Assembly (NCBI GenBank): GCA_018304985.1
Contig: JAGVWP010000006.1
Location: 1 to 34,278, forward strand
DNA from: Candidatus Pacearchaeota archaeon
Lineage (GTDB): Archaea; Nanobdellota; Nanobdellia; Pacearchaeales; GW2011-AR1
Length of the DNA: 34,278 nt
Reading direction: 5' to 3'
Made by a program: the position numbers and the translations under genes. The notes under the pieces were generated by a model. It was not told where the DNA came from. It searched no databases and worked only from the letters and a program-made list of their open reading frames with translations. Numbering within the stretch: the first letter of the stretch is position 1; every line of letters starts with the position of its first letter. Below are positions 9,094 through 34,135 of this stretch, one piece after another.

Positions 9094-9128
9094 ATAAAAC
9101 TTAATTAAATCCTACTTAAAAATCTTTT

Positions 9129-9172
9129 CCCGCAACCTTTATAAATTCCCATTATAGTAAGTTATCTATCGC
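9129..9172. repeat. 44-bp direct repeat, left copy (lhr promoter duplicate)
   Basis: This 44-bp stretch (CCCGCAACCTTTATAAATTC and onward through TAGTAAGTTATCTATCGC) recurs at 12073-12116 with a single C/T difference. The right copy carries the TATA box (CTTTATAAAT) ahead of lhr. The left copy overlaps the last three codons and stop of ATPase 9162-10406. The pair therefore brackets ATPase 1 and the PLP-enzyme-like gene, as expected if that segment was inserted at the lhr promoter. Confidence 0.85.
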
Positions 9173-10406
9173 TTATTAATGTAGAAATTTGGAATATTGG
9201 AAAAAATTCTATAACACTTTTTTTAAGCTCCATTTTGCCGCTAAACTCTGTTGAAAGAACAATTCCTTTTTTGGGGCTATATTCTTCAATAAAACTTCTA
9301 AAAGATCTTGTAATATTTTTATTCTTTAAAGTGGTTTTTATTTCAAGAGGAAGAATAATGCCATCTTTTTCTAAAATAAAATCTACTTCTGCACCTGCTT
9401 TGGTTTTCCAATACCTCAATTCAATATCACTTTTAACAAGCTCTGAAGCCACAAAATTTTCATTAATAGCTCCTTTATCTGTTCTCTCCTCTAGTCTTTG
9501 AAAATTATTTAATATGATGTTCCTAAACCCATTATCCAAAAAGAAATATTTTGGAGATTTAACAATTTCTTTTCTTTTATTTGTGAAAAATGGCCTATTT
9601 TCAATACAAATAAATGTTTTTTTAAGAATATTAAGATTTTTCATCAAATCATGATAGCTAAAATCAGTAGAAGATGAAAGTTCATGGTAATTCGCAATAC
9701 TGCCAGTTTGAATAGCTAAGAGTTTAATTAGCCTGCTTAGTTTAAAGTCTTCTTGAAGCTGCAATATTTCTTTTATTTCTTTTAAAAAATAAGTATTATA
9801 TATATTTTTCAGAACTTCAATCTTTTCTTCTTTATCATTAGAGATAATAACCCTTGGATAGCCGCCATAAGTAACAAACTCCTCATAATATTGGTTTACT
9901 TTGCCAATTAATTGGCTTGATAAATCTTTTTTCTTATATAAATAATATAGTTTCCCATCTTTATAACTTAAAAATTCCCCAAAAGAAAAGGGGTATAATG
10001 TAAAAACAAATATTCTGCCAACAAGATATTTAATGCTATGAATTGATAAGTCGGATGAAGACGATCCAGAAATAATAATTTTTACATCAAAATTATCATA
10101 GATATATTTAAGTTGCTTGCCTCCTTGTTTTGCATACTGAAATTCATCTATAAATAAATATTTGTTATTTTTTACATATAATTCTATAAATGATTTTAAG
10201 TCCTTAGAAAAAAACTCTAGTATTTCTCTATCTTCAAATGTTATAAATTTGGCATTTTTCAGCCCAAGAAGGATATGTTTCATTAAAGTTGTTTTTCCGC
10301 ACTGCCTTGCTCCAACTATTGCAATGACTTCTTTCTTATCAAGATACTTGCTTATTTTACTCTCTAAAAATCTGGGAATATAATTTTTATCTGTCTTTTC
10401 TGCCAT
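9162..10406 (-). CDS. DUF4143-type AAA ATPase 1
   Basis: A 414-residue protein. The N-terminal AAA_14 ATPase has Walker A GARQCGKTT (32-40), Walker B KYLFIDEFQ and sensor-like ISGSSSSDLS. The C-terminal DUF4143 domain includes KYFFLDNGF, then INENFVASEL, AEVDFILE and PLEIKTT, which together retain the E, D and E-x-K of a PD-(D/E)XK-like fold. It is more distant from the other three ATPases here and lacks their WKWLLEE ending. Its promoter has an 11-bp inverted repeat (10421-10463). Its stop lies within the 44-bp duplicated lhr promoter. Members of this family are widespread, mobile and poorly understood; a defence or addiction role is inference. Confidence 0.9.
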   Translation of the reverse strand: MAEKTDKNYIPRFLESKISKYLDKKEVIAIVGARQCGKTTLMKHILLGLKNAKFITFEDREILEFFSKDLKSFIELYVKNNKYLFIDEFQYAKQGGKQLKYIYDNFDVKIIISGSSSSDLSIHSIKYLVGRIFVFTLYPFSFGEFLSYKDGKLYYLYKKKDLSSQLIGKVNQYYEEFVTYGGYPRVIISNDKEEKIEVLKNIYNTYFLKEIKEILQLQEDFKLSRLIKLLAIQTGSIANYHELSSSTDFSYHDLMKNLNILKKTFICIENRPFFTNKRKEIVKSPKYFFLDNGFRNIILNNFQRLEERTDKGAINENFVASELVKSDIELRYWKTKAGAEVDFILEKDGIILPLEIKTTLKNKNITRSFRSFIEEYSPKKGIVLSTEFSGKMELKKSVIEFFPIFQISTLISDR

Positions 10407-10420
10407 AAAATTCTTTATTT

Positions 10421-10463
10421 TAACCTCACTAAAATTTATTATATTTTAATAATAGTGAGGTTA
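10421..10463. promoter_or_regulatory. Inverted repeat at promoter of ATPase 1
   Basis: TAACCTCACTA (10421-10431) and TAGTGAGGTTA (10453-10463) are perfect 11-bp arms with a 21-bp spacer. The minus-strand TATA-like TTTATAAATA overlaps the outer arm, so the two arms flank the predicted start of transcription. This looks like an operator. No separate regulator gene is adjacent. Confidence 0.65.
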
Positions 10464-10510
10464 TTTATAAACCTTTCTATTACCCTTTTTAACATCCTTT
10501 TCCCCTTTAA

Positions 10511-10548
10511 TTATAACTCTTAAGTAGTTACAAATAGAAAGGTTTAAA
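10511..10548 (+). promoter_or_regulatory. Shared promoter block P3 (identical to P2)
   Basis: The 38 bp are identical to 7949-7986 and include AAGTAGTTACA and AAAGGTTTAAAA. The block ends 23 nt before ATG 10572. Like P2 it diverges immediately after the TATA box. The block sits inside the segment bracketed by the 44-bp repeats. Confidence 0.8.
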
Positions 10549-10571
10549 AGGGAATTAACCATTATTAATTT

Positions 10572-11837
10572 ATGATGAAACTAAAAGAAATTACACAGGT
10601 GTTTGATGTAAGTAATGTTAGCGAAGCTTATCATGGATCTATTGATATTACAGATTTAAAAGATGAATTAGGGACAAAAGGACATGTTCTTGTAGTAAGA
10701 GGAGATAAAGCTTATGTAGATGTTTTAGGAGATAATGCACATTTAGCAAATCCTAAATTTTGGTTATACGAAAATTTAATTAATTCTCCAAGAGTTCAAG
10801 AACAATTAAAAGGCAACCCAAATCATAAATTATTTGATGGGGTTGGATTTTCTTCATTAGAAGCATTGGGTTATCATGCAAAACGATTAGGCAGAAAAGC
10901 GGTTGTTGTAATGGCTCACGAGCATGTACCAGATGATAAAGTTTTTGAAAGATATGATATGGAAGTTATTCACGGAGATAAACCAGCTGAAGAAGGTTAC
11001 GTTGAAAAACAAAGAGAAGTTCTTTCTCAGAGAGATGATTTAATACCCCTTCATCAAGCATTATACGGAGCACAGGCGTTAGCCCCGATCGGAAACGCTG
11101 TAGCAAATAGGCTTGAAGAATTATGTATTATACCTGATGAAACTTTTTGGTCTATGGCAAGTGGCTCAAATTTATATGGAATTGGAAACAAAATAAAAAG
11201 TAGGTTTCATAGTAAAACTGTACTAGTAGAACCCAAAAAGGGAAGAACTGTTGATCCTTCTCTAGATCTATCAAATCCAGAAGAAGTTAAATCATTTGCA
11301 AAAAGGAAACTTAGAGATTATTCCCTAGACGATTGGAATAGAATAAATCCTGGTATTTTTCCACTTCATGTTAAACATCCTAATAGATACTTATTAATTA
11401 ATTGGTTATATAAAGGATATACTGGGATTGATTCAACAGTAGGGATAAGTTCCAGTGAAGTAAATAAAATACAAAAAAGATTAAGGAGATTATCGCCGGA
11501 ATACGATTGGACAAAAACAACCGCTCTAACAATGGTTCCAGCAATTGAAGCTGCAAATAGAGGCAAGAATGTTTTAGTTATGAGTTACGGAAAAAATAGG
11601 GAAAATAAAAGTAGAGATATAACATTTATAGATCAAATTCCTTGGATTTTAAGAAATGAAACTCCCTTTCAGAAAGTTGCTGCTTCAATAATGCTTGCTG
11701 GATATTTAGCTGCTGCATCGTATGCTTCTTGGGATATTATATTTCAAAATATTCCTGCTTTTAATGGGTCTGCGGTTGTTGATAAAGACGAAAAAACATG
11801 GGTTTCTAGATTAGCAGATATGGACAATTTACATTAA
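10572..11837 (+). CDS. Fold-type II PLP-enzyme-like protein with C-terminal membrane segment, probably frameshifted
   Basis: A 421-residue protein whose order of elements resembles the cysteine synthase/threonine synthase superfamily. KLFDGVGFSSLEALGYHAKR stands where the substrate loop and following helix should be, then AVVVMAHEHVPD, then ASGSNLYGIGNKI where the PLP-phosphate loop (GTGGT-type) should be, then TVLVEP. I do not find a convincing Schiff-base Lys in the NPxGSxKDR position (it reads NPKFWLYEN) nor the SGNTG loop, so it may be a non-catalytic relative. A hydrophobic helix (about 373-393) precedes the stop. An EF-hand-like segment continues downstream in another frame (11854-12058). 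Promoter block P3 drives it. Confidence 0.6.
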   Translation: MMKLKEITQVFDVSNVSEAYHGSIDITDLKDELGTKGHVLVVRGDKAYVDVLGDNAHLANPKFWLYENLINSPRVQEQLKGNPNHKLFDGVGFSSLEALGYHAKRLGRKAVVVMAHEHVPDDKVFERYDMEVIHGDKPAEEGYVEKQREVLSQRDDLIPLHQALYGAQALAPIGNAVANRLEELCIIPDETFWSMASGSNLYGIGNKIKSRFHSKTVLVEPKKGRTVDPSLDLSNPEEVKSFAKRKLRDYSLDDWNRINPGIFPLHVKHPNRYLLINWLYKGYTGIDSTVGISSSEVNKIQKRLRRLSPEYDWTKTTALTMVPAIEAANRGKNVLVMSYGKNRENKSRDITFIDQIPWILRNETPFQKVAASIMLAGYLAAASYASWDIIFQNIPAFNGSAVVDKDEKTWVSRLADMDNLH

Positions 11838-11853
11838 GGAAATAGGATTTTGA

Positions 11854-12058
11854 AGCTTTGAGAAATTATTTAGTGGAGGAGGGTTAGCAGATAAAGATAA
11901 AAATGGTATTATTAATTATGAAGAACAATTTGATGTTTGGAATAGGATGAGATTACTTGACAGAGATAAAACTTATTTTGAGTCTGAGGGTACAAATCAA
12001 TTCCCTAAACCAAAAAAAGAGGACTTAGAAAGAGCAATTGAAAGTTATGAAACTGAAT
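11854..12058 (+). pseudogene. Out-of-frame EF-hand-like tail of the PLP-enzyme-like gene
   Basis: In the +1 frame relative to the preceding gene, about 67 open codons run from 11854 to the TAA at 12058 without a good start codon. They encode a clear EF-hand loop, DKDKNGIINYEE, followed by DVWNRMRLLDRDKTYFESEG. The upstream gene stops only 17 nt earlier, after a similar DKD-containing stretch. The most economical reading is a frameshift near 11838-11853 that cut off a calcium-binding-type tail. It could also be a relic of a separate gene lost at the insertion boundary. Confidence 0.5.
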
Positions 12059-12072
12059 AAAAAATTTCTTCC

Positions 12073-12116
12073 CCCGCAACCTTTATAAATTCTCATTATA
12101 GTAAGTTATCTATCGC
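12073..12116 (+). repeat. 44-bp direct repeat, right copy, containing the lhr promoter
   Basis: The partner of 9129-9172 (43 of 44 identical, same orientation). CTTTATAAAT at 12081-12090 is a good archaeal TATA box, with transcription expected near 12110, leaving about a 45-nt leader before the lhr ATG at 12156. Confidence 0.8.
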
Positions 12117-12155: not shown

Positions 12156-13565
12156 ATGACCAAGATAGTGCAAGCTGTAAAACGTGAAAGCAGGCAGGTA
12201 GAGAAAGCTCTGCATCCGCTTGTTAAAGAATGGTTTTTTACAAAATTCAAGGAGTTCTCCTTAACACAGCTATATGGGGTTGGAGCAATCTGGGAAAGAA
12301 GGAATATTTTAATTTCAGCTCCAACAGGCGGAACAAAAACATTAACAGCCTTTCTTTCAATTTTAAATTACTTAGTTATTTTAGCTGAAAAACAGGAATT
12401 AGAAAACAGAATTTATTGTGTTTATACTTCGCCCCTTAAAGCGCTATCTAATGATATTCATAAAAATCTTGTAGAACCTCTAGAACAAATCTATCAATTA
12501 GCAGAATCTAAAGGAATAAAGTTACAAGAAATAAGAGTTGGCTTAAGAACAGGAGATACAACTCTGGCTGAAAGAGCTAAAATGGCAAGAAAAATCCCGC
12601 ATATTTTAGTAACAACTCCCGAATCTCTGGCAATTATCCTCACAAGCAAGAACTTTGTTAACGCTCTAAATGGTGTGGAATTCTGTATTGTTGATGAAAT
12701 TCATGCCCTAGATAATAAGCGTGGAGCTTACCTAAGTATCAGCTTAGAAAGACTAAATGAAGTAAGCAAAATATGGCCTGTAAAAATTGGTTTAAGCGCA
12801 ACAATCTCTCCTTTAGAAGAAGTTGCTAAATTCCTTGTAGGAATAGATGATGAAAGAGAAGTTGAAATAGCTCAAGTAGAGTTACAAAAAAAAATTGATA
12901 TTGAAGTTCTCACTCCTGTTAAAAATATAATTGATGATGAAAACATTCAAAACGATATGTATAGTTTAATTGACGCTTTAATTCAAAAGCATAAAACAAC
13001 TCTTATCTTCACAAACACACGAGCTGGAACAGAAAGAGTTGTTGCCCATCTAAAAGATAAATTCCCGACAATTTACGGAGATGATAATATAGCGGCTCAT
13101 CACGGCTCTTTAAGCAAAACTCTAAGATTTAATATTGAAGAGCGTTTAAGAAATGGAGAACTAAAAACAGTTGTCTGTTCAACAAGCCTGGAATTAGGAA
13201 TTGATATTGGCTATATTGATTTAGTTATAATGCTAGGCTCTCCAAAATCTTCAGCAAGAGCATTACAGAGAATGGGAAGAGCGGGCCATAAACTGCACGA
13301 CACAGCTAAAGGAAAGTTTATTGTAACAGATAGAGATGATTTAATAGAATGTGCTGTTATACAAAAAGAAATGATTGAAAGAAAAATAAACACGGCAAAA
13401 TTCCCAAAAAATGCCCTAGATGTCTTAGCTCAGCAGATTTACGGCATGGCAATATACAAAATCTGGGATATTGAAGAACTTTTCTCTTTAATAAGAAAAG
13501 CTTATTGCTATCACGATTTAAGCAAAAACGATTTCTATGATATTATAAGTTATCTAGCAGGATAA
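12156..13565 (+). pseudogene. lhr: Lhr-type superfamily 2 helicase, N-terminal part of a broken gene
   Basis: 469 residues covering the two RecA-like domains and the start of the winged helix: motif I APTGGTKT (55-62), TSPLKALSNDI, TTPESL, motif II VDEIH, GLSATI, CSTSLELGIDIG and motif VI QRMGRAGHKL. Lhr proteins are 3'-5' DNA helicases in archaeal repair. Two anomalies are visible. Motif I normally reads G-x-G-K-T, but here the Gly before Lys is Thr. The frame ends at YLAG-stop where the family continues for about 40 residues before R-x-I-Y-x-T-N-x-G-T-I-P; that last motif reappears in another frame at 13559. An out-of-frame deletion is the simplest explanation. The part may be inactive, or may pair with the downstream part as a split protein. 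Confidence 0.85.
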
Positions 13566-13570
13566 TTTAC

Positions 13571-14659
13571 TTGACAAATATTGGAACAATTCCAGAAGAA
13601 TCATACATTACAGTCAAGTTAGCCGGAAGTGAGGAAAGAATAGGAGCAATAGATGAAGGTTTCTTAGAAAGAATGAAACGAGGAGATGTTTTTGTTTTAG
13701 GCGGAAGTAAATACGAATACGGATATGTAAGAGGAATGAACTTATATGTCCGATCCGCAACACACAAAAACCCGACAATTCCTTCATGGTTCTCAGAAAT
13801 GCTGCCATTAAGCTTTGACTCTGCTAATGAAATAAACAGATTCCGTTTATTAATTAAAGAAAAACTGGATAAAGGAAAAGATGGAAAAACAAAAAAGCAG
13901 GAAATAATTAAGTTTATTCAAGAATATTTGTATCTGCCTGAACAAACCGCAGAAGCTATTTACAATTACATGAATGAACAGTATAAATTTTCAGAAATAT
14001 CAACATCAAGAAAAATAATCATTGAAAGATACAAAGGAGAGAAAAATTACTTGTTAGTTAACAGTATGTATGGCAGAAGAGTCAATGATGCCCTTTCCAG
14101 ATCGCTGGGTTTTTTAATGGGAACAGTTGGAGGGAGGGATATTGAAATAGGTGTTACAGACTCTGGATTTTATATTGCAGGAGAGAGTCTGAAAATTGAA
14201 AAAGCACTGGAATTCTTAAATTCTAAAAATCTTCACGAAGTTTTAGTAGAAGCAATTGAAAAAACAGATTTATTAGCAAGAAGATTCAGGCATTGCGCAT
14301 CAAGATCTTTAATGATTTTAAGAACATATAAAGGCCTTAGAAAAAGTGTGGGCAAACAACAAATGAAAAGCCATTTCTTATTAAGCGCTGTAAGAAAAGT
14401 CTCAAATAAATTTCCTATTTTAAATGAAGCCCGCAGAGAAGTTTTGGAAGATGTCATGGATATTGCCAGCACAAAACTAGTCTTAGAGCAAATTGAATCA
14501 GGCTTGTTGAAAGTAGAAATAAAAGACGTCAAGCTTCCCTCACCCTTTACTTTAAACTTAATAATTCAAGGCCACAGCGATCTCATAAAGATCGAAGACA
14601 AACAGGCTTTCCTAAAGCGTATGCATGAGTTGCATATGAAAGCGATAGGCGAGGAATGA
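13571..14659 (+). pseudogene. lhr: Lhr-type helicase, C-terminal part of a broken gene
   Basis: The 362-residue frame contains the Lhr C-terminal region: TNIGTIPEESYI, FVLGGSKYEY, PTIPSWFSEMLPLSFDSA and the following helical domain. Homology starts at codons RIIYLTNIG from 13559, before the possible TTG start at 13571, so it is a continuation of 12156-13565 after a deletion of roughly 40 codons and a frame change. The gene ends FLKRMHELHMKAIGEE at 14659, and this terminal stretch is duplicated three times downstream (16166, 17611, 19120). The absence of other stops says the break is recent or that the half is still selected. It converges with ATPase 2. Confidence 0.85.
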
Positions 14660-14724
14660 TTGTTTACACAAAGTATATCAAAAATGGTTCTTTTTCTATT
14701 TTTCTTCAAGAAGCCATTTCCAAA
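14606..14724. repeat. lhr 3'-end repeat R1 (in the resident gene)
   Basis: The last ~50 bp of lhr, its stop, about 27 bp of downstream flank, and the 3' end of ATPase 2. The lhr part and flank recur at 16166-16240 (R2) and 17611-17700 (R3), and the lhr part alone at 19120-19164 (R4). R1 and R3 also share the following ~45 bp because they abut homologous ATPase 3' ends (WKWLLEEK-stop). Confidence 0.9.
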
Positions 14725-16009
14725 GGGGAATAAACTTGATTTTTCTTCGTATGCCAAACCATTCTGTGCTCTCCTCTCCTGAATAGTTTTGATTAATTAT
14801 TAATAAATTATTGCATTTTAGCTCTTTGCTTGCTTTTAACAAAGCCCTTATTTCTCTCTTTTTTGTATCGGGGTCTGTAAGGTCATAGCAAACCTGTATT
14901 AATTGGCTAATTTTTGTGTCTTTTTTTATCACAAAATCAACTTCTTCTTTTTCCGTATTTTTCCAATAATAACTTTCTTCTTTCTTTCTTTTCAGTTCAA
15001 TGGCAACAATATTCTCATAAAGCCGCCCGTAATTATTCATAAACTTGGTTGAAATTGAATTAATAAAAGAGTTGTCTATAAAATATATCTTTTTAGGATA
15101 TTGTATTTGATCTTTAATTTTATAAGAAAAAATAGGCAAGCTAAATGCAAAATAAGAATTTTCAATGTAAGAAATATACTTTTGTACAGTTGATTTGCCA
15201 ACTTCATTTCCCAAGCTTTTAAGGTTATTGTAAGCTTTGCTTATAGAATAATCTCTTGAATCTAAAAGTAACTTTATCAAAGTTTTCAAAGATTCCTCAT
15301 TTTTTATGCCATATCTTTCAACAATATCCCTTTTTATTGCTGTAGCATAATAAGACTGTGCCAACTCAAACTTTTTATTTTTATCTTCAAGAACTATTTC
15401 AGGCAAGCCGCCATAAAGAAGGTATTCAGTAAGTGCCTTAAGAATAATAGGCCTCTCTTTTTCAGAATATTCTAATATTTTAAAGTCAAAATTAAGGTTC
15501 TTAAATTTTAAAAATTCTTTAAAAGATAAGGGAAATACTTTAACTTCCAGGAATCTGCCCCTTAACTCTGTAGGGATCTCTTCTTCAGACATTCTTGAAG
15601 AAGAGCCGGAGACAAAAATTCTCATGTTTTGATTGGCATCATATACCCTTCTAAGCCACTTGCTCCAGTTAGGAATATTGTGAAGTTCATCTAAAAACAA
15701 ATATTTAATTTTTTTATTAAATATTTCCTCGGATGTTGGAAGCAAATCGCTTAAAAATTCCGTCTTTAGGGGAATTCTTTCATCTTCAAAATTAATAAAG
15801 ACCACTTCTTCACGAGAATTAAGCTTAAGCAGCTCATTGGCTAAACCATAAAGAATATAGGTCTTTCCAACTCTCCTAAAACCATTTAATACAACTATCT
15901 TATTAATCTTCATATTAAGATAGCTTTGAAGGTCTAATTTTCTTGGAATTATTAAGGGAATGTCTTTTCCCTTCCATTCTGCCAGTATTGTTTTTATTAT
16001 ATTATTCAT
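14696..16009 (-). CDS. DUF4143-type AAA ATPase 2
   Basis: A 437-residue protein with Walker A GFRRVGKTY (about 43-51), Walker B YLFLDELHNI, SGSSSRM sensor and the DUF4143 half: IYFIDNSFI, LYENIVAIELKRK, EKEEVDFVIKK, LIQVCYDLTD. It ends PLWKWLLEEK like ATPase 3. The E-x-K seen in ATPase 1 is replaced by QVC, so a nuclease-type active site is not complete. It lies between lhr tails R1 and R2, convergent to lhr. Its promoter holds TAGTACAA-N13-TTGTACTA (16009-16037) directly over the start. A diverged copy of this promoter and first codons survives at 19051-19095. Confidence 0.9.
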   Translation of the reverse strand: MNNIIKTILAEWKGKDIPLIIPRKLDLQSYLNMKINKIVVLNGFRRVGKTYILYGLANELLKLNSREEVVFINFEDERIPLKTEFLSDLLPTSEEIFNKKIKYLFLDELHNIPNWSKWLRRVYDANQNMRIFVSGSSSRMSEEEIPTELRGRFLEVKVFPLSFKEFLKFKNLNFDFKILEYSEKERPIILKALTEYLLYGGLPEIVLEDKNKKFELAQSYYATAIKRDIVERYGIKNEESLKTLIKLLLDSRDYSISKAYNNLKSLGNEVGKSTVQKYISYIENSYFAFSLPIFSYKIKDQIQYPKKIYFIDNSFINSISTKFMNNYGRLYENIVAIELKRKKEESYYWKNTEKEEVDFVIKKDTKISQLIQVCYDLTDPDTKKREIRALLKASKELKCNNLLIINQNYSGEESTEWFGIRRKIKFIPLWKWLLEEK

Positions 16010-16165: not shown

Positions 16166-16240
16166 TTTCCTAAAGCGTATGCATGAGCTGCATATGAAAG
16201 CTATTGGTGAGGAATGATTATTTACACAAAGCATACCAAA
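16166..16240. repeat. lhr 3'-end repeat R2 (relic)
   Basis: It starts TTTCCTAAAG and encodes the same terminal residues as lhr (FLKRMHELHMKAIGEE-stop), then follows the lhr downstream flank to about 16240. Upstream of it there is no lhr sequence. Differences from R1 in coding positions are synonymous (TTG/CTG, GCG/GCT, ATA/ATT, GGC/GGT). It separates ATPase 2 from the AbiE-like pair. Confidence 0.9.
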
Positions 16241-16255
16241 AAAGATATACCTCCC

Positions 16256-16939
16256 TTAAATCTTTTGCAAATCTAAAATTGCTTTTTTATGTTTCTCAAA
16301 AACTTTATCATCTATAATTCCATAAACTCCCTGTAAAGTGTCTTTAAATTGTTTTGAAGTTATCTTTTCCTTAATCTTTAAATATAATCTATTAAAATCA
16401 TACTTTTTTGAAATCTCTTCTTTTACCCATTTTTTATTTTTTATGTTTGGGGCCAGCATAAAAATATCTCTTATATCTGTTAAACGACAGCTCACAAATT
16501 TCAAGACAAATAAAGCATCTAAGTTTATGATTCTTAATTTTAGTTCTTCTGTAATTGTCTTTCCCCTTAGAGTTCTTATCTCTGAATTATTAAATACCCA
16601 ATCAGCAGAAAAAGTAGCATTGGTTTGCCTGTCCAAAACTTCTTTGATTAAAATATCAATACTTACTTTAATATTATCTCCTAAATCTTTCTCTAATCTT
16701 AAAAAATCTCCATAATAAGAAGCATTATCTTTGTTATTCTCTTCTCTTGCATAACCAAAATCTACTAGAACTTCTTCAATTTCCATTAATTCCTCTTTAT
16801 CTTTAACTACAATATCGCAATCAACTGAAAATCTTGGAAGAGTGTAAGCATTCACAGCATATCCGCCAATAATTACAAACTTGAATTTTCCCATTCGCTT
16901 TAAGGTTTCAAAAATCTCTTTTTCTCTAAGCTGTAGCAT
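16256..16939 (-). CDS. AbiEii/MNT-like nucleotidyltransferase, probable type IV toxin
   Basis: A 227-residue nucleotidyltransferase. IIGGYAVNAY (23-32) followed by RFSVDCDIVV gives the G-G and D40-x-D42 catalytic motif, and FVLKFVSCRLTDIRDI matches the conserved Lys/Asp helix of AbiEii-type enzymes. Such toxins nucleotidylate tRNA and act in phage defence. It is shorter than typical AbiEii (~300 residues). Its start overlaps the upstream winged-helix gene by 14 bp. The pair occupies the slot between lhr relics R2 and R3. Confidence 0.75.
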   Translation of the reverse strand: MLQLREKEIFETLKRMGKFKFVIIGGYAVNAYTLPRFSVDCDIVVKDKEELMEIEEVLVDFGYAREENNKDNASYYGDFLRLEKDLGDNIKVSIDILIKEVLDRQTNATFSADWVFNNSEIRTLRGKTITEELKLRIINLDALFVLKFVSCRLTDIRDIFMLAPNIKNKKWVKEEISKKYDFNRLYLKIKEKITSKQFKDTLQGVYGIIDDKVFEKHKKAILDLQKI

Positions 16940-17528
16940 TTTTATATTTATTTTTCATGTAATTGTAAGCATACAAATACATTTCATTTAATTTTGCTAA
17001 TTTAATTGTTTCTTTTAAATTATCAATTTTATAATTTTCTTTTTCTACAAAACTTAATTTTTCAACAGGAATTAATATTATATATTCTCCTATGGTCGTT
17101 CCTTCATTAACATAATTTGGGATATTATGTTTGTTAAAGAAATTTTTCCAATATTTTAAATCTTTCTTTAAAACTTTAATAAAATAAGGTGATTTTTCTA
17201 TTCCTCTTTGAACATAGGAATAATCGCTCCAAATTTCTATAGCAGACAAATTAGTGAAAGCATAATCTTTTTCTGCTTCTTTTACTATTTGGGGGACTTT
17301 AAATTCTAATAAACTCCTGATTATTGTCTCTGGATTTAAGCATACATAAGTATTATTTGATTGCTTTTTGATCCAACCAGCCCTTAATAATAATGCAAAT
17401 ATCTTTTTTTTCATGCTTTGCCCAACTATCCAATCTAACTCTGACTGTTTGAATCCTTCTTTATCTTTATGCTTTGAAAAAAACAAAGCATATGCCTTTA
17501 AGCCATATTGGGGTATTTCTGTTGCCAT
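16926..17528 (-). CDS. AbiEi-like winged-helix antitoxin/regulator
   Basis: A 200-residue protein with an N-terminal helical/winged-helix region (QSELDWIVGQSMKKKIFALL, then RAGWIKKQSNNTYV) and a mixed C-terminal domain. Its position directly upstream of and overlapping a nucleotidyltransferase toxin fits AbiEi-type antitoxins. Those bind inverted repeats to repress their own promoter, and a near-perfect palindrome is present at 17555-17571 between TATA-like TTTAAATAT and the ATG. Identification rests on size, order and operator more than on strong motifs. Confidence 0.6.
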   Translation of the reverse strand: MATEIPQYGLKAYALFFSKHKDKEGFKQSELDWIVGQSMKKKIFALLLRAGWIKKQSNNTYVCLNPETIIRSLLEFKVPQIVKEAEKDYAFTNLSAIEIWSDYSYVQRGIEKSPYFIKVLKKDLKYWKNFFNKHNIPNYVNEGTTIGEYIILIPVEKLSFVEKENYKIDNLKETIKLAKLNEMYLYAYNYMKNKYKNATA

Positions 17529-17610: not shown

Positions 17611-17728
17611 GCTTTCCTAAAGCGTATGCATGAGCTGCATATGAAAGCTATAGGTGAGGAATGATTGTTTACACAAAGTATATCAAAAATGGTTCTTTTT
17701 CTATTTTTCTTCAAGAAGCCATTTCCAA
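17611..17728. repeat. lhr 3'-end repeat R3 (relic)
   Basis: It carries the lhr terminal codons and stop, the downstream flank, and then the 3' end of ATPase 3, collinear with R1 over about 118 bp. To the left it shares the extra block CCTTGTTTAAAGCTTTCC with R4, a block absent from R1 and R2. Coding differences from R1 are synonymous (TTG/CTG, GCG/GCT, GGC/GGT). Confidence 0.9.
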
Positions 17729-18969
17729 ACAGGCATTACCTTTATTTTTTTGCTTTCTATTTTAATTTCTTCTTCTTGGCTATTTGTTAAAAGCAATCCT
17801 TCATTTAATTTAAATTTATCCATTGCTTCAGAGAGTCCAGAAATCTCTCTTTCTCTGTTATCTTCATTTAAATCATAACAAACCTGAATTGCATTAATAA
17901 CAGTTTTATTTTTAACTAATAAAAAATCGCATTCATTTTTATTAGAATAATAAAAAACATCATTATTTTTATTTAAAGAGTTAAATACTAAATTTTCCAG
18001 TAGCCATCCTTTATCTTTTGTAAGCTTCTTAGATAAAACTCCAATAAATCCATTATCTATTACATAAAATTTCTTATCATTTATTAGCTGCTTTTTTAAT
18101 GAATAATCAAACTTGTTTATTGTTCTTGCAAAATAAGTTTCTTCAAGATAATGTATAAATTTTTTAATTGTATTAACACTATTAATATCAGTAATCTTCT
18201 TTAAGGAATTAAAGCTGAATTTATTGGCAAAATTAGATATTAAAATAGAATATAAATTTCTTAAAACAATTATATTATTTACCTTATGCCTAACCGCTAT
18301 ATCTTTTAAAATAGTATCTTCATAAACTTTTGTTAAAAGTTCAAAATCATTATAAATCAAATATTCAGGCATTCCTCCACCTATTAAATATTCTTCAAAA
18401 TATTTTTTTATTTCAACTTTTGATTCAGTTTTATACACTGAGTCTTTCTCAATATTAAACTCTCTTAATTCTAAAAATTCTGAAAAAGAGAAAGGCCTAA
18501 CAACAATATCAACATGCCTTCCCGTAAGTTTTGTCCCTAATTCCTTGCTTAATAATGTTGCAGAAGAACCGGTAATAAAAAACTTAAATCCTTCTTCATA
18601 AAATCTTCTTATAAAAGTTTCAAAGTTAGTTACATTTTGAATTTCATCTAGAAAGAAAACTTTTTTCTTTCCATATAAGCTTATTAACCCTTCATAAAGT
18701 TTGTTAAATTCATTAGCAGGAAAATTAAATAATCTTTCATCTTCAAAGTTAATATAATAAAAGTCTTCATCATTGTATATTTTTTTTATTAGTTGTCTTA
18801 AAAGAGTAGATTTTCCGCTTCTTCTTAAACCAGTTAAAACAACAACATGAGGAAGCTTAATTTTAGATTCAATTTTTCGGAGTATAGTTCTCTCTATGCC
18901 ATATTTTTTATTAAATATGGTTTCTCTCTGTTTCACTAATATTTCTTTTATTTGTTCTTCTGATAACAT
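17701..18969 (-). CDS. DUF4143-type AAA ATPase 3
   Basis: A 422-residue protein: Walker A GLRRSGKSTLLRQ (about 46-58), INFEDERLFNF, Walker B VFFLDEIQNV, TGSSATLLSKELGTKLTGR, then DUF4143 elements FYVIDNGFIG, ENLVFNSLNK, ECDFLLVKNK, IQVCYDLNEDNRERE and the ending VMPVWKWLLEEK. It is closest in this window to ATPase 4 (shared ELGTxLTGR, DNREREI-GL-EAMDKFKL). It lies between relics R3 and R4. Its promoter (TATA-like TTTAAAAAC near 18992-19000) is preceded by a 10-8-10 inverted repeat at 19013-19040. Confidence 0.9.
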   Translation of the reverse strand: MLSEEQIKEILVKQRETIFNKKYGIERTILRKIESKIKLPHVVVLTGLRRSGKSTLLRQLIKKIYNDEDFYYINFEDERLFNFPANEFNKLYEGLISLYGKKKVFFLDEIQNVTNFETFIRRFYEEGFKFFITGSSATLLSKELGTKLTGRHVDIVVRPFSFSEFLELREFNIEKDSVYKTESKVEIKKYFEEYLIGGGMPEYLIYNDFELLTKVYEDTILKDIAVRHKVNNIIVLRNLYSILISNFANKFSFNSLKKITDINSVNTIKKFIHYLEETYFARTINKFDYSLKKQLINDKKFYVIDNGFIGVLSKKLTKDKGWLLENLVFNSLNKNNDVFYYSNKNECDFLLVKNKTVINAIQVCYDLNEDNREREISGLSEAMDKFKLNEGLLLTNSQEEEIKIESKKIKVMPVWKWLLEEK

Positions 18970-19119: not shown

Positions 19120-19164
19120 CTTTCCTAAAGAGAATGCATGAGCTGCACATGAAAGCTATAGGGG
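19120..19164. repeat. lhr 3'-end repeat R4 (relic, degenerate end)
   Basis: It encodes FLKRMHELHMKAIG like the other copies but then reads GGA ATA AAA instead of the Glu-Glu-stop, and the downstream flank of R1-R3 is missing. Differences from R3 before that point are synonymous (CGT/AGA, CAT/CAC, GGT/GGG). It is the last relic before plus-strand genes resume. Confidence 0.85.
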
Positions 19165-23320: not shown

Positions 23321-23360
23321 AAAAGGACCAAGGTCCTTCTTATGACATCTCCTTTTAATG
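23321..23360 (-). repeat. Dispersed 34-bp-type hairpin repeat, inverted single copy
   Basis: On the minus strand it reads AAAAGGAGATGTCATAAGAA followed by the hairpin AAGGACC-TT-GGTCCTT. The first part matches the second unit of the tandem array at 31901-32006 over 20 bases. The stem here is perfect, and compensating changes in the other copies (AGAACC/GGTTCT) suggest the structure is conserved. Confidence 0.6.
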
Positions 23361-31795: not shown

Positions 31796-31900
31796 ACAAA
31801 CTGAATAAAACTAAAAGAAGAATGAGCTAGTTGGGCTTATGGGCAATTGCATAATCCTAAGATATATTTATGAATATCTACAATACTAAATTCCTTCTTT

Positions 31901-32006
31901 TAAGAAAAATTCATAAAGAAAACCTTGGCTATTAAAAGGAGATGTCATAAGAAGAACCTTGGCATTTAAAAGGAGAGTTCATAAAGAGAACCATTGGTTC
32001 TTTTTA
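31901..32006 (+). repeat. Three tandem copies of a 34-bp hairpin repeat
   Basis: The phrase TCATAA recurs at 31911, 31945 and 31979, a period of exactly 34 bp. Each unit has AAAAGGAGA-like sequence (less clear in the first), TCATAA(A)GA, and a G/AAACC-TT/ATT-GG stem. The last unit forms a full hairpin AGAACC-ATT-GGTTCT followed by a T-run. Single relatives are at 6090 and 23321. Within 31796-32145 (350 bp) no gene is seen; the rest is this array and the 83-bp repeat. Confidence 0.75.
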
Positions 32007-32060
32007 TTAAGTAACTTACATTGATAAATTATGTAAGAATATGGTATGATTTAAAATTAC

Positions 32061-32143
32061 TCTCCCTTCTCTCCACCTTCAAAAATTTTCTCCCTTCAGA
32101 AATAAAAAACTATAATCTAAAAACAATTGCTTGATAATTTTCA
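32061..32143. repeat. 83-bp direct repeat, left copy (relic 3' end of gene 33755)
   Basis: Aligned without gaps to 33706-33788, 73 of 83 bases match. On the minus strand it encodes a relic ENYQAIVFRL-stop corresponding to the C-terminus ENYQAVVFGL-stop of gene 33755-34135, then the same downstream flank. The two copies bracket ATPase 4, copying the arrangement seen at lhr. Confidence 0.88.
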
Positions 32144-32145
32144 TT

Positions 32146-33510
32146 TTATAAAGCGTGTCTTTTTGCAATTCCCTTATTAACTTTTCTTCCTATGTCTAAA
32201 GCATCCTCTTCTTTAAGTTTGCTTTTTGATAATATTTTATCCATCATTTCAAGCTTGCTTTCTTCTAAGAGCCATTTCCAGACAGGTTTTACAATAACTT
32301 GCTTATTTCTTTTTAATGCTATTTCTTCTTCTTGGTCATAAGTTAAAATTAAGCCTTTTTTTAATTTGAATTTATCCATAGCTTCAGTTAATCCTGTAAT
32401 TTCTCTCTCCCTATTATCTCTTGTCAGTTCATAACAACATTGAATAACCTGAGTAATTTTAGCCCCATCTTTAATTACAAAATCACATTCTTTTTTATCT
32501 GAATAATAGTATGTCTCTTTTGCCCTTCTTTTTAATTCTATAAAGGTAATATTCTCAAGAAGTTTGCCATTATCTGGAGTAAATCTAAAACCGAGATATT
32601 TCGCTAAGCCATTGTCAATACAATAAACTTTCTTGTTATAATACATCTGCTTTCTTAGAGAATAATCAAACTTTGGGACTAAGAAAAGAAGAAAACTATT
32701 TTCTAAATAGTCAAAATAATCTTTTATAGTTGTTGAGCTTCCAAGACCAAGAATTTTCTTTATCGAATTGAAACTTATTTCCTTAGAGATATTATTGATA
32801 GCAAGATTAACTAACTCTTTGAGACTCTTTTCATTCGGTATTTTGTATCTTACTAAAATATCTCTATAGACTATATTTTCGTAAAGAGTCTTTAAATAAT
32901 CTACATTTAGCTCTCTAAGATATTCGGGAAATCCACCATTAATGAAATAGTCTGAAAAATTCTTTTTTATTTTTGCTCGTGATGTAGTAAGATATGCTGA
33001 CTTTTCATCAAGTTCAAATTTCTTTAGAGATAAAAACTCTTTAAATGAAAAAGGAAACATTTGTAGCATGAGATACCTTCCCGTAAGATGAGTCCCAAGC
33101 TCTCTGCTTAACATAGAAGCATTTGATCCAGTTATAAATACTTTTTTTCTCTCATCATACAATCTTCTGACAAATCGTTCCCACATAGGAATATTTTGTA
33201 TTTCATCAAAATAGAATATTTTCTTTTCTCCATATAATTCTATGAACAATTCTTCTAATATTTTGAAGTCTTCAATTTTAAAATTAATTAATCGTTCATC
33301 ATCAAAGTTAAGGTAATATCCATGATATTTTTTTCTTATCTGAGACAATAATGTAGATTTCCCGCATCTCCTTATTCCTGAAATAATTATCACAAAATCA
33401 TTTTGTATATATGATTCGACTTTGGAAAATATCTCTCTATCTACTAAGTTCTCCTGCTCTTGCCTGTTGTTTTGGTCAAGTATTACTTCCTTTAATTCTG
33501 TTCTATTCAT
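32146..33510 (-). CDS. DUF4143-type AAA ATPase 4, with C-terminal extension
   Basis: A 454-residue protein. Walker A GIRRCGKSTLLSQ (about 45-57), INFKIEDFKI, Walker B IFYFDEIQNI, TGSNASMLSRELGTHLTGR, DUF4143 elements VYCIDNGLAKYLGF, LENITFIELKRR, ECDFVIKDG, IQCCYELTRDNRERE. It reaches VWKWLLEES, where ATPases 2 and 3 stop, but continues for about 37 residues (MDKILSKSKLKEEDALDIG, then RKVNKGIAKRHAL). That tail resembles the N-terminus of archaeal VapB-type antitoxins; the resemblance is from memory. Its promoter has TATA-like TTTATAAAGG and an adjacent inverted repeat at 33541-33561. Confidence 0.88.
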   Translation of the reverse strand: MNRTELKEVILDQNNRQEQENLVDREIFSKVESYIQNDFVIIISGIRRCGKSTLLSQIRKKYHGYYLNFDDERLINFKIEDFKILEELFIELYGEKKIFYFDEIQNIPMWERFVRRLYDERKKVFITGSNASMLSRELGTHLTGRYLMLQMFPFSFKEFLSLKKFELDEKSAYLTTSRAKIKKNFSDYFINGGFPEYLRELNVDYLKTLYENIVYRDILVRYKIPNEKSLKELVNLAINNISKEISFNSIKKILGLGSSTTIKDYFDYLENSFLLFLVPKFDYSLRKQMYYNKKVYCIDNGLAKYLGFRFTPDNGKLLENITFIELKRRAKETYYYSDKKECDFVIKDGAKITQVIQCCYELTRDNREREITGLTEAMDKFKLKKGLILTYDQEEEIALKRNKQVIVKPVWKWLLEESKLEMMDKILSKSKLKEEDALDIGRKVNKGIAKRHAL

Positions 33511-33540
33511 GTTTTTATTATGTTTAAGGCCTTTATAAAC

Positions 33541-33561
33541 ATTTCCATTGATAATGGAAAT
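33541..33561. promoter_or_regulatory. Inverted repeat at promoter of ATPase 4
   Basis: ATTTCCATT (33541-33549) and AATGGAAAT (33553-33561) form perfect 9-bp arms with a 3-bp spacer, immediately upstream of the minus-strand TATA-like TTTATAAAGG. A half-site ATTTCCAC follows at about 33575-33582. The arms differ from those of the other three ATPases. Confidence 0.65.
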
Positions 33562-33705
33562 ATAAGCTATATTATTTCCACTACTAATAGAATATAAACA
33601 ATAGTTTTAAGAGCATAATATTATGGTTTGGCTAACATAAGGAGCCTTTTGGTAAATAGAATTACCTTTTCTTCAACCAGAAAAATGTGTTAATAAAATT
33701 TTTAT

Positions 33706-33788
33706 TCTCCCTTCTCTCCGCCCTCAAAAATTTCATCACTTTAGAAATAAAAGATTATAATCCAAAAACAACTGCTTGATAATTTTCA
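33706..33788. repeat. 83-bp direct repeat, right copy (3' end of gene 33755)
   Basis: The resident copy: the last ~11 codons of gene 33755-34135 plus its downstream flank (CTCCCTTCTCTCC block). It matches 32061-32143 at 73 of 83 positions. ATPase 4 and its promoter lie between the copies. Confidence 0.88.
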
Positions 33789-34135
33789 GGAGATAAAGTA
33801 GCACCAGTTAATTTAATCTTCAGTCCTTTTTTAGTCATTAAATCAAAAGATTTTTGAGTAATTGGAACTAATCCTAAAACATCAGGTTCTTTTGATTTTT
33901 CTTCAATAAAAGCTTCCAAATTATTATTTGGGATTTCACGCCCCTGAGAAAAATGTATTGCTATTGTACCTTCCCCAACTGGAAAGGTATTATATCTTGT
34001 ATCTGAAACAATATAAACCTTACCCTTAGCTTTACGTTCGCTTGGCATCACTAATGATTGAACAGCAAAATTCGTTCCATACACCATTGTTTCTTCTTCA
34101 GTCATTTCTCTAGTAACTTGATTTTCTATTGTCAT
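33755..34135 (-). CDS. Orphan protein, 3' end used as insertion site
   Basis: A 126-residue soluble protein starting MTIENQVTREMTEEE, without signal, membrane segment or recognised motif. It has mixed alpha/beta character (GKVYIVSDTRYNTFPVGEG). The TATA-like AGTATAAAAAGTA on the minus strand near 34153-34165 is about 25 nt from the ATG. Its final codons and downstream flank are duplicated at 32061-32143 on the far side of ATPase 4. The resident end is intact, so any insertion restored the gene. Confidence 0.7.
   Translation of the reverse strand: MTIENQVTREMTEEETMVYGTNFAVQSLVMPSERKAKGKVYIVSDTRYNTFPVGEGTIAIHFSQGREIPNNNLEAFIEEKSKEPDVLGLVPITQKSFDLMTKKGLKIKLTGATLSPENYQAVVFGL

Follow-up and report, generated by a model that had tools for sequence, protein, structure and literature searches.

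A DUF4143 ATPase gene between likely relics of the gyrA 3' end, and possible tail-replacing insertion of small cassettes at conserved genes, in a Pacearchaeota archaeon

The dif/pdif modules of Acinetobacter are XerCD cassettes that carry toxin-antitoxin (TA) genes. The cassettes considered here resemble them as small TA cassettes that would be moved in trans and that form arrays, several with an 11-6-11 palindrome nearby. In contrast to the modules, most of the sites, including that of our main subject (ATPase 4), have no palindrome, and the repeats are the tails of host genes. Integrated elements of Thaumarchaeota (iMGEs) lie in the 3' ends of protein genes in 14 of 68 cases, and the att sites reported for crenarchaea measure 29-69 bp (PMC6563490). 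Features common to these elements and to the present loci are 3'-distal integration in a protein gene, a new stop codon that comes with the element, direct repeats in a similar length range, and tandem occupation. However, the thaumarchaeal elements are larger and as a rule carry an integrase or casposase, whereas the units described here consist mostly of 1-3 genes without a recombinase. Mitochondrial mORFs replace the C-termini of genes, namely atp6, atp9, cox2, and nad3 in Glomus and atp6 in Allomyces (PMC3630166). As appears to happen here, a C-terminus of foreign origin, diverged at synonymous sites, arrives with the inserted gene, and the native one survives downstream as a displaced relic. 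The mORFs encode LAGLIDADG or GIY-YIG homing endonucleases, whereas here several kinds of cargo occur and the catalytic lysine is missing from most DUF4143 domains. What is new relative to the archaeal 3'-end elements and the mORFs is a unit with neither integrase nor homing endonuclease and with varied, mostly defence-type cargo.

The window, a stretch of 34,278 nucleotides, is the whole of contig C28 in a Candidatus Pacearchaeota archaeon genome (G000; 972 kb, 44 contigs, 88% complete). Its ATPases 1-4 all match the PF13173, PF13635, and PDC-S01 models, with a P-loop AAA_14 domain followed by DUF4143, which we take to be a PD-(D/E)XK-like domain. ATPase 4 resembles the PADLOC candidate defence family PDC-S01 (PDLC04787) in sequence over almost its whole length (E-value 4e-117), and its defence role is that of a candidate. 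We know of no gene-end insertion for PDC-S01, and a search of the available literature for DUF4143 in archaea found no paper. The gene is flanked by a direct repeat (32057-32153 and 33702-33798) with 85% identity over 97 bp. BLAST of the genome aligns the copies at 87% over 87 bp (108 bits) and finds the repeat to be unique, the next best place reaching 34.6 bits. The flank alignment scores 68, against 47 for the 99.9th percentile of mismatched pairs made from the flanks of other genes. The 83-bp copies around ATPase 4 described in an earlier note on this DNA are therefore real.

The same note took both copies for the 3' end of gene 33755, intact on the right and a relic on the left. The 3' end of gene 33755 indeed lies within the right copy, and ENYQAIVFRL-stop can be read from the left one, but this end makes up only ~33 bp of each copy; the remainder includes a 36-bp stretch that appears to be a relic of a gyrA 3' end. 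In the sister species G001, the closest relative with the ATPase 4 region, gyrA occupies the corresponding site and ends in DEIFEGGEKGE-stop. Beyond the gene-33755 end, the right copy holds GATGAAATTTTTGAGGGCGGAGAGAAGGGAGAATAA, which encodes the same DEIFEGGEKGE residues, with 4 synonymous and 0 non-synonymous codon differences from G001 gyrA. Because the right copy encodes these C-terminal residues and the left copy a decayed version of them, the 83-bp repeat is read as the end of gene 33755 followed by the old end of gyrA. The GGEKGE tail is common to G001 gyrA and the right relic, and recurs less exactly in the left relic and at the end of the G001 PIN gene. The two gene-33755 ends alone show 0 synonymous and 2 non-synonymous differences, that is, no synonymous excess. 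From these comparisons the ATPase 4 repeat is most likely a scar that stems from the 3' end of gyrA, a gyrase gene, and the host role proposed for gene 33755 was dropped. This gene has no Pfam, NCBIfam, or PADLOC match, no protein homologue among the 37 related genomes searched, and none in phage records or viral contigs; it is probably itself cargo of an array at the gyrA end. The orientation contrast implied in the note remains: ATPase 4 and gene 33755 lie on the same strand, whereas the ATPases at lhr lie on the strand opposite lhr.

The gyrA gene of G000 is on another contig (C36:142-2220), its 3' end ~140 bp from the contig end (start of C36). It ends DEIFEGTNSEKDNEK-stop, matching G001 through DEIFEG and then continuing in a new tail; this tail in use is found neither in the two relics nor in the sister species. 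Since the 3' ends of gyrA and serS face each other in genomes G004 and G006, synteny places C36 beside the window, on its right, and in G001 serS and a hydrolase gene stand beside gyrA. We infer that C36 adjoins the window there, on the basis of synteny and across a junction that is not joined in the assembly. The present gyrA would accordingly carry a tail from elsewhere, with its native tail displaced beyond the inserted genes. At positions 1-77 of C36 (L133) is the end of a gene convergent with gyrA; it reads KFGSGAKIDAPKEFLGKKVYILIRK and by eye resembles DUF2080 transposon-encoded proteins.

In G001 the site is not empty but holds other genes, in the order serS, hydrolase, PIN-domain toxin gene, 73-aa vapB-like antitoxin gene, 148-aa gene, gyrA. 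Window positions 32134-32260 match the end of the 73-aa ORF, on its 3' side, with 96% identity over 127 bp; this ORF is intact in G001, upstream of the PIN-domain gene. It has no Pfam match and is named vapB-like only because it precedes and overlaps the PIN-domain gene. ATPase 4 has thus captured the end of a vapB-like antitoxin gene (Table 1), and the vapC-like remnant that follows joins the gene-33755 tail relic via a 10-bp microhomology, TGAAAATTAT, as read from the sequence. Several insertions and one or more deletions have taken place at this site. Nearby, at 31880-32020, and again at 23328-23359, the window has a dispersed repeat family (CATAAGAAGAACCTTGGCATTTAAAAGGAG-like, ~34-nt units) found in dozens of places in G001 and in a few in G003 and G004.

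Table 1. Features at the ATPase 4, lhr, and ATPase 1 sites (window coordinates) and places of two recurrent motifs (locus coordinates)
Feature	Position	Strand	Remarks
ATPase 1 (9162-10406 -) and gene 10572-11837 (+), in divergent promoter region before lhr	9118..12116		
Tail c1, the lhr 3' end in use, plus 25 bp of 3' sequence	14608..14684	+	
DUF4143 ATPase cassette at lhr	14696..16009	-	
Displaced lhr tail c2	16166..16242	+	reading frame intact
AbiEi-like/AbiEii-like pair between lhr tails, non-ATPase cassette	16256..17528	-	PF08843 in 16256-16939
Displaced lhr tail c3	17613..17689	+	reading frame intact
DUF4143 ATPase cassette at lhr	17701..18969	-	
Most distal lhr tail c4	19121..19163	+	
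Second putative gyrA 3'-end relic, EKIFEGGEKGE-stop	32057..32092	-	second part of left repeat copy; slightly decayed
Gene-33755 3'-end relic (ENYQAIVFRL-stop)	32110..32143	-	first part of left repeat copy
First 11 bp of former vapC-like gene (ATGAAAATTAT)	32134..32144	-	comparison with G001 L365
ATPase 4 C-terminal 36 codons, derived from vapB-like antitoxin gene	32146..32256	-	G001 comparison
ATPase 4, AAA_14 + DUF4143	32146..33510	-	PF13173 3.7e-38, PF13635 2.4e-21
Putative gyrA 3'-end relic, DEIFEGGEKGE-stop	33702..33737	-	inside right repeat copy; same 11 residues as G001 gyrA C-terminus
Gene 33755, 126-aa orphan	33755..34135	-	host gene in the earlier note
11-6-11 palindrome	L024 2998-3031, 4431-4456; L113 881-906, 2387-2412, 3795-3820; L112 1119-1144, 1964-1989		
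Motif TTATTCGGTTTATGTAGGAGATTTAATCCTAA	L020 4748-4779, 6152-6183; L130 1498-1529; L220, L212, L243, L367, L368, L369		

The lhr 3' end of G000 carries three cassettes and four tails. One cassette is an AbiE-like pair rather than an ATPase, and a homologous pair sits between other direct repeats in G005. Tail c4 differs from c1 by 5 synonymous and 0 non-synonymous changes in 14 codons, followed by a short deletion before the stop. The lhr tail of G001 is closer to the proximal copy, which counts against the explanation we prefer (below), so that either lhr tail may be the foreign one. Duplicated lhr tails occur in only 2 of 74 lhr loci of the genome collection; insertion at lhr is therefore rare outside G000. 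Weak lhr-tail matches in L285, L311, and L326 were rejected, as they lie inside genes and are at chance level. The lhr gene itself (window 12156-14659) is split in two ORFs by a frame change near 13565-13571, and G001 lhr is also split, elsewhere (L100 3815-3843).

The earlier note regarded ATPase 4 as an independent site and argued that lhr is not the only gene whose end is duplicated around DUF4143 ATPases. This view is upheld, as the pattern is also found in several relatives and, within G000, at aEF1B and at a second C40 gene; at C23 there is a short repeat on the 3' side. Direct repeats span the host-gene 3' end and leave the gene intact at lhr, aEF1B, and gyrA (gyrA by synteny). G001, which has no DUF4143 gene, has empty sites corresponding to ATPase 1, lhr, aEF1B, and C23. 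At aEF1B the copies are a mosaic: at the few informative sites, the G001 sequence is matched by the proximal copy in the left part and by the distal copy in the right part, as expected from one crossover inside a short core. A foreign tail in use with a displaced native tail fits gyrA (by synteny) and aEF1B; at lhr the direction could be either one.

Flanking direct repeats were counted at a score of at least 30, for G000 over 684 kb taken as stretches. They flank 6 of 12 single DUF4143 genes in G000, compared with 16 of 566 other genes (p=1e-6), and 13/73 compared with 21/399 among relatives, taken as independent genomes of the order (p=7e-4). Against length-matched genes of the same loci in the relatives (4/45, few controls), the excess is not significant at score 30 (p=0.14). 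Where a repeat overlaps a neighbouring gene, it does so at the 3' end 12 times and at the 5' end 3 times, with neighbouring ends available at 82 to 79 (p=0.02, post hoc).

The data do not bear out a link peculiar to DUF4143, given this length-matched result and the fact that TA and defence genes and metabolic operons are flanked likewise. Examples are an AbiE-like pair, HEPN/MNT, MazF, NYN, Fic, an xseAB operon, and a sugar-metabolism operon. When ten flanked non-ATPase genes were typed with Pfam, nine were of NYN, MazF, HepT, nucleotidyltransferase, Fic, or Schlafen/AlbA_2 type; these nine are TA or defence-like. The two operons, from two other families of the order, lie between lhr tails (xseAB in G024, sugar metabolism in G035). 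In the complete genome Pace33H (L098 3692-9848), a 5.9-kb sugar-metabolism operon with genes for ROK kinase, GPI, SIS, RpiB, PRPP synthetase, and a trehalose synthase-like protein lies between two lhr tails (151 bp, 91%).

Based on the repeats, the empty sites in G001, the synonymously differing tails, the gyrA tail unlike the relic tails, and the non-ATPase cassettes, we somewhat favour a tail-replacing, att-like insertion of defence and TA cassettes at the 3' ends of conserved genes, by enzymes proposed to act in trans. Small cassettes, usually one DUF4143 ATPase or a TA pair with its own promoter, would insert into the 3' ends of gyrA, lhr, and aEF1B, one crossover falling within a short stretch of the host gene. 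The host gene would then run into the tail supplied by the cassette and stay intact, and the old tail would be left as a relic on the far side. Repeated insertion would build arrays with tails as separators, the ATPase 4 site being such an accessory-gene array at the gyrA 3' end. The process would work like attL/attR formation by an integrase or like the C-terminus swap of mitochondrial mORFs. No tyrosine recombinase or integrase gene is present in the window (no PF00589 match on C28), and the three tyrosine recombinases of G000 are all on other contigs. The crossover would be performed in trans, by a tyrosine recombinase of the genome or by homologous recombination with incoming DNA.

A less probable alternative is that cassettes insert in the ordinary way and duplicate a long target site (30-150 bp) as two distant nicks are filled in, after which the far copy decays and selection keeps only insertions at gene ends and promoters. 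ATPase 1 fits it well. This gene was inserted in the divergent promoter region of lhr, so that gene ends are not the only targets. The insertion made a clean duplication of ~50 bp (9118-9172 and 12062-12116), both copies of which resemble the empty, uninterrupted G001 site. Gene 10572-11837, inserted with it (421 aa), has no Pfam or NCBIfam match. Near-identical non-coding repeats, such as 32/32 bp at C23 and a 119-bp pair in L260, and the lack of a common motif in the repeats also agree with target duplication. The coding tails, however, do not. Neutral decay of one copy should by a simple expectation yield ~60% non-synonymous differences, whereas the pooled tail pairs show 36 synonymous and 11 non-synonymous codon differences (p=4e-7), for example 5:0 for lhr c1-c4, 4:0 for gyrA, 15:4 for G024 lhr, and 5:0 for the first 41 codons of G035 lhr. 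Therefore, most tails are not simple target duplications that later decayed, and the gyrA tail in use, unlike both relics and the sister species, also argues against this alternative. GC3 did not single out a foreign tail at G024 lhr. The marks of a transposon, terminal inverted repeats and identical target duplications, are lacking, as there is no common terminal motif and coding copies differ synonymously, with the ATPase 1 duplication as the exception; with its plain-looking target duplication, ATPase 1 suggests that two insertion routes may exist.

It is rather improbable that the DUF4143 ATPase itself, through its PD-(D/E)XK-like C-terminal domain, is the mobile enzyme, cutting the uninserted gene end so that its gene is copied in with a resistant tail, as by a free-standing homing endonuclease. 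Tail swapping is identical in form to that of mORFs (PMC3630166), and repeats are enriched around DUF4143 genes. However, only 32 of 93 ATPases keep an intact D-ExK motif (the catalytic lysine is missing in ATPases 2-4), and flanking repeats are equally frequent with the motif (7/31) and without it (12/54), which speaks against a homing nuclease; the same scars also surround genes that encode no such protein. The DUF4143 nuclease was thus rejected as the driver, and the ATPase would be cargo rather than the mobilising enzyme.

The repeats have no motif common to all, and the palindrome AAAGTATATC-N6-GATATACTTT, present at some loci only, was rejected as a general att site. An 11-6-11 dif-like palindrome, CAAAGTATATC-N6-GATATACTTTC, occurs in 5 places in G000, 3 of them close to DUF4143 genes, and in 3 copies around TA cassettes in G005. 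Xer-like palindromes are found at C9, C2, G005 C4, and G004 C20, with a half-site in lhr tails c1-c3 and none at ATPase 4; as an Xer-like site the palindrome is a lead only. The motif TTATTCGGTTTATGTAGGAGATTTAATCCTAA is conserved across genera; two copies flank a C23 ATPase, whereas the empty G001 site lacks the motif.

Local tandem duplications and deletions, with tail exchange by homologous recombination between related strains and no mobility at all, are very unlikely, for although the left junction owes its present form to a 10-bp microhomology deletion and to fusion with the vapB-like gene, and an ATPase copy 88% identical in DNA sits in another context in G004, the empty G001 sites require insertion, as does the variation in cargo between families at one and the same host gene.

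Tail-replacing insertion may, more tentatively, be part of a DPANN cassette system that has no enzyme gene of its own. Through recombination at essential-gene 3' ends, defence and TA genes would pass from strain to strain, with a spare tail on every cassette, so that arrays at gyrA, lhr, and aEF1B would be harmless to the host gene. If true, tail-replacing insertion would account for the way in which defence genes enter and accumulate in very small archaeal genomes although no transposases or integrases lie next to these genes. The displaced, still readable tail of a conserved gene would be a simple sequence signature for unknown defence genes. Finally, conserved archaeal genes may have had their C-termini exchanged by horizontal transfer, a point of relevance to phylogeny.
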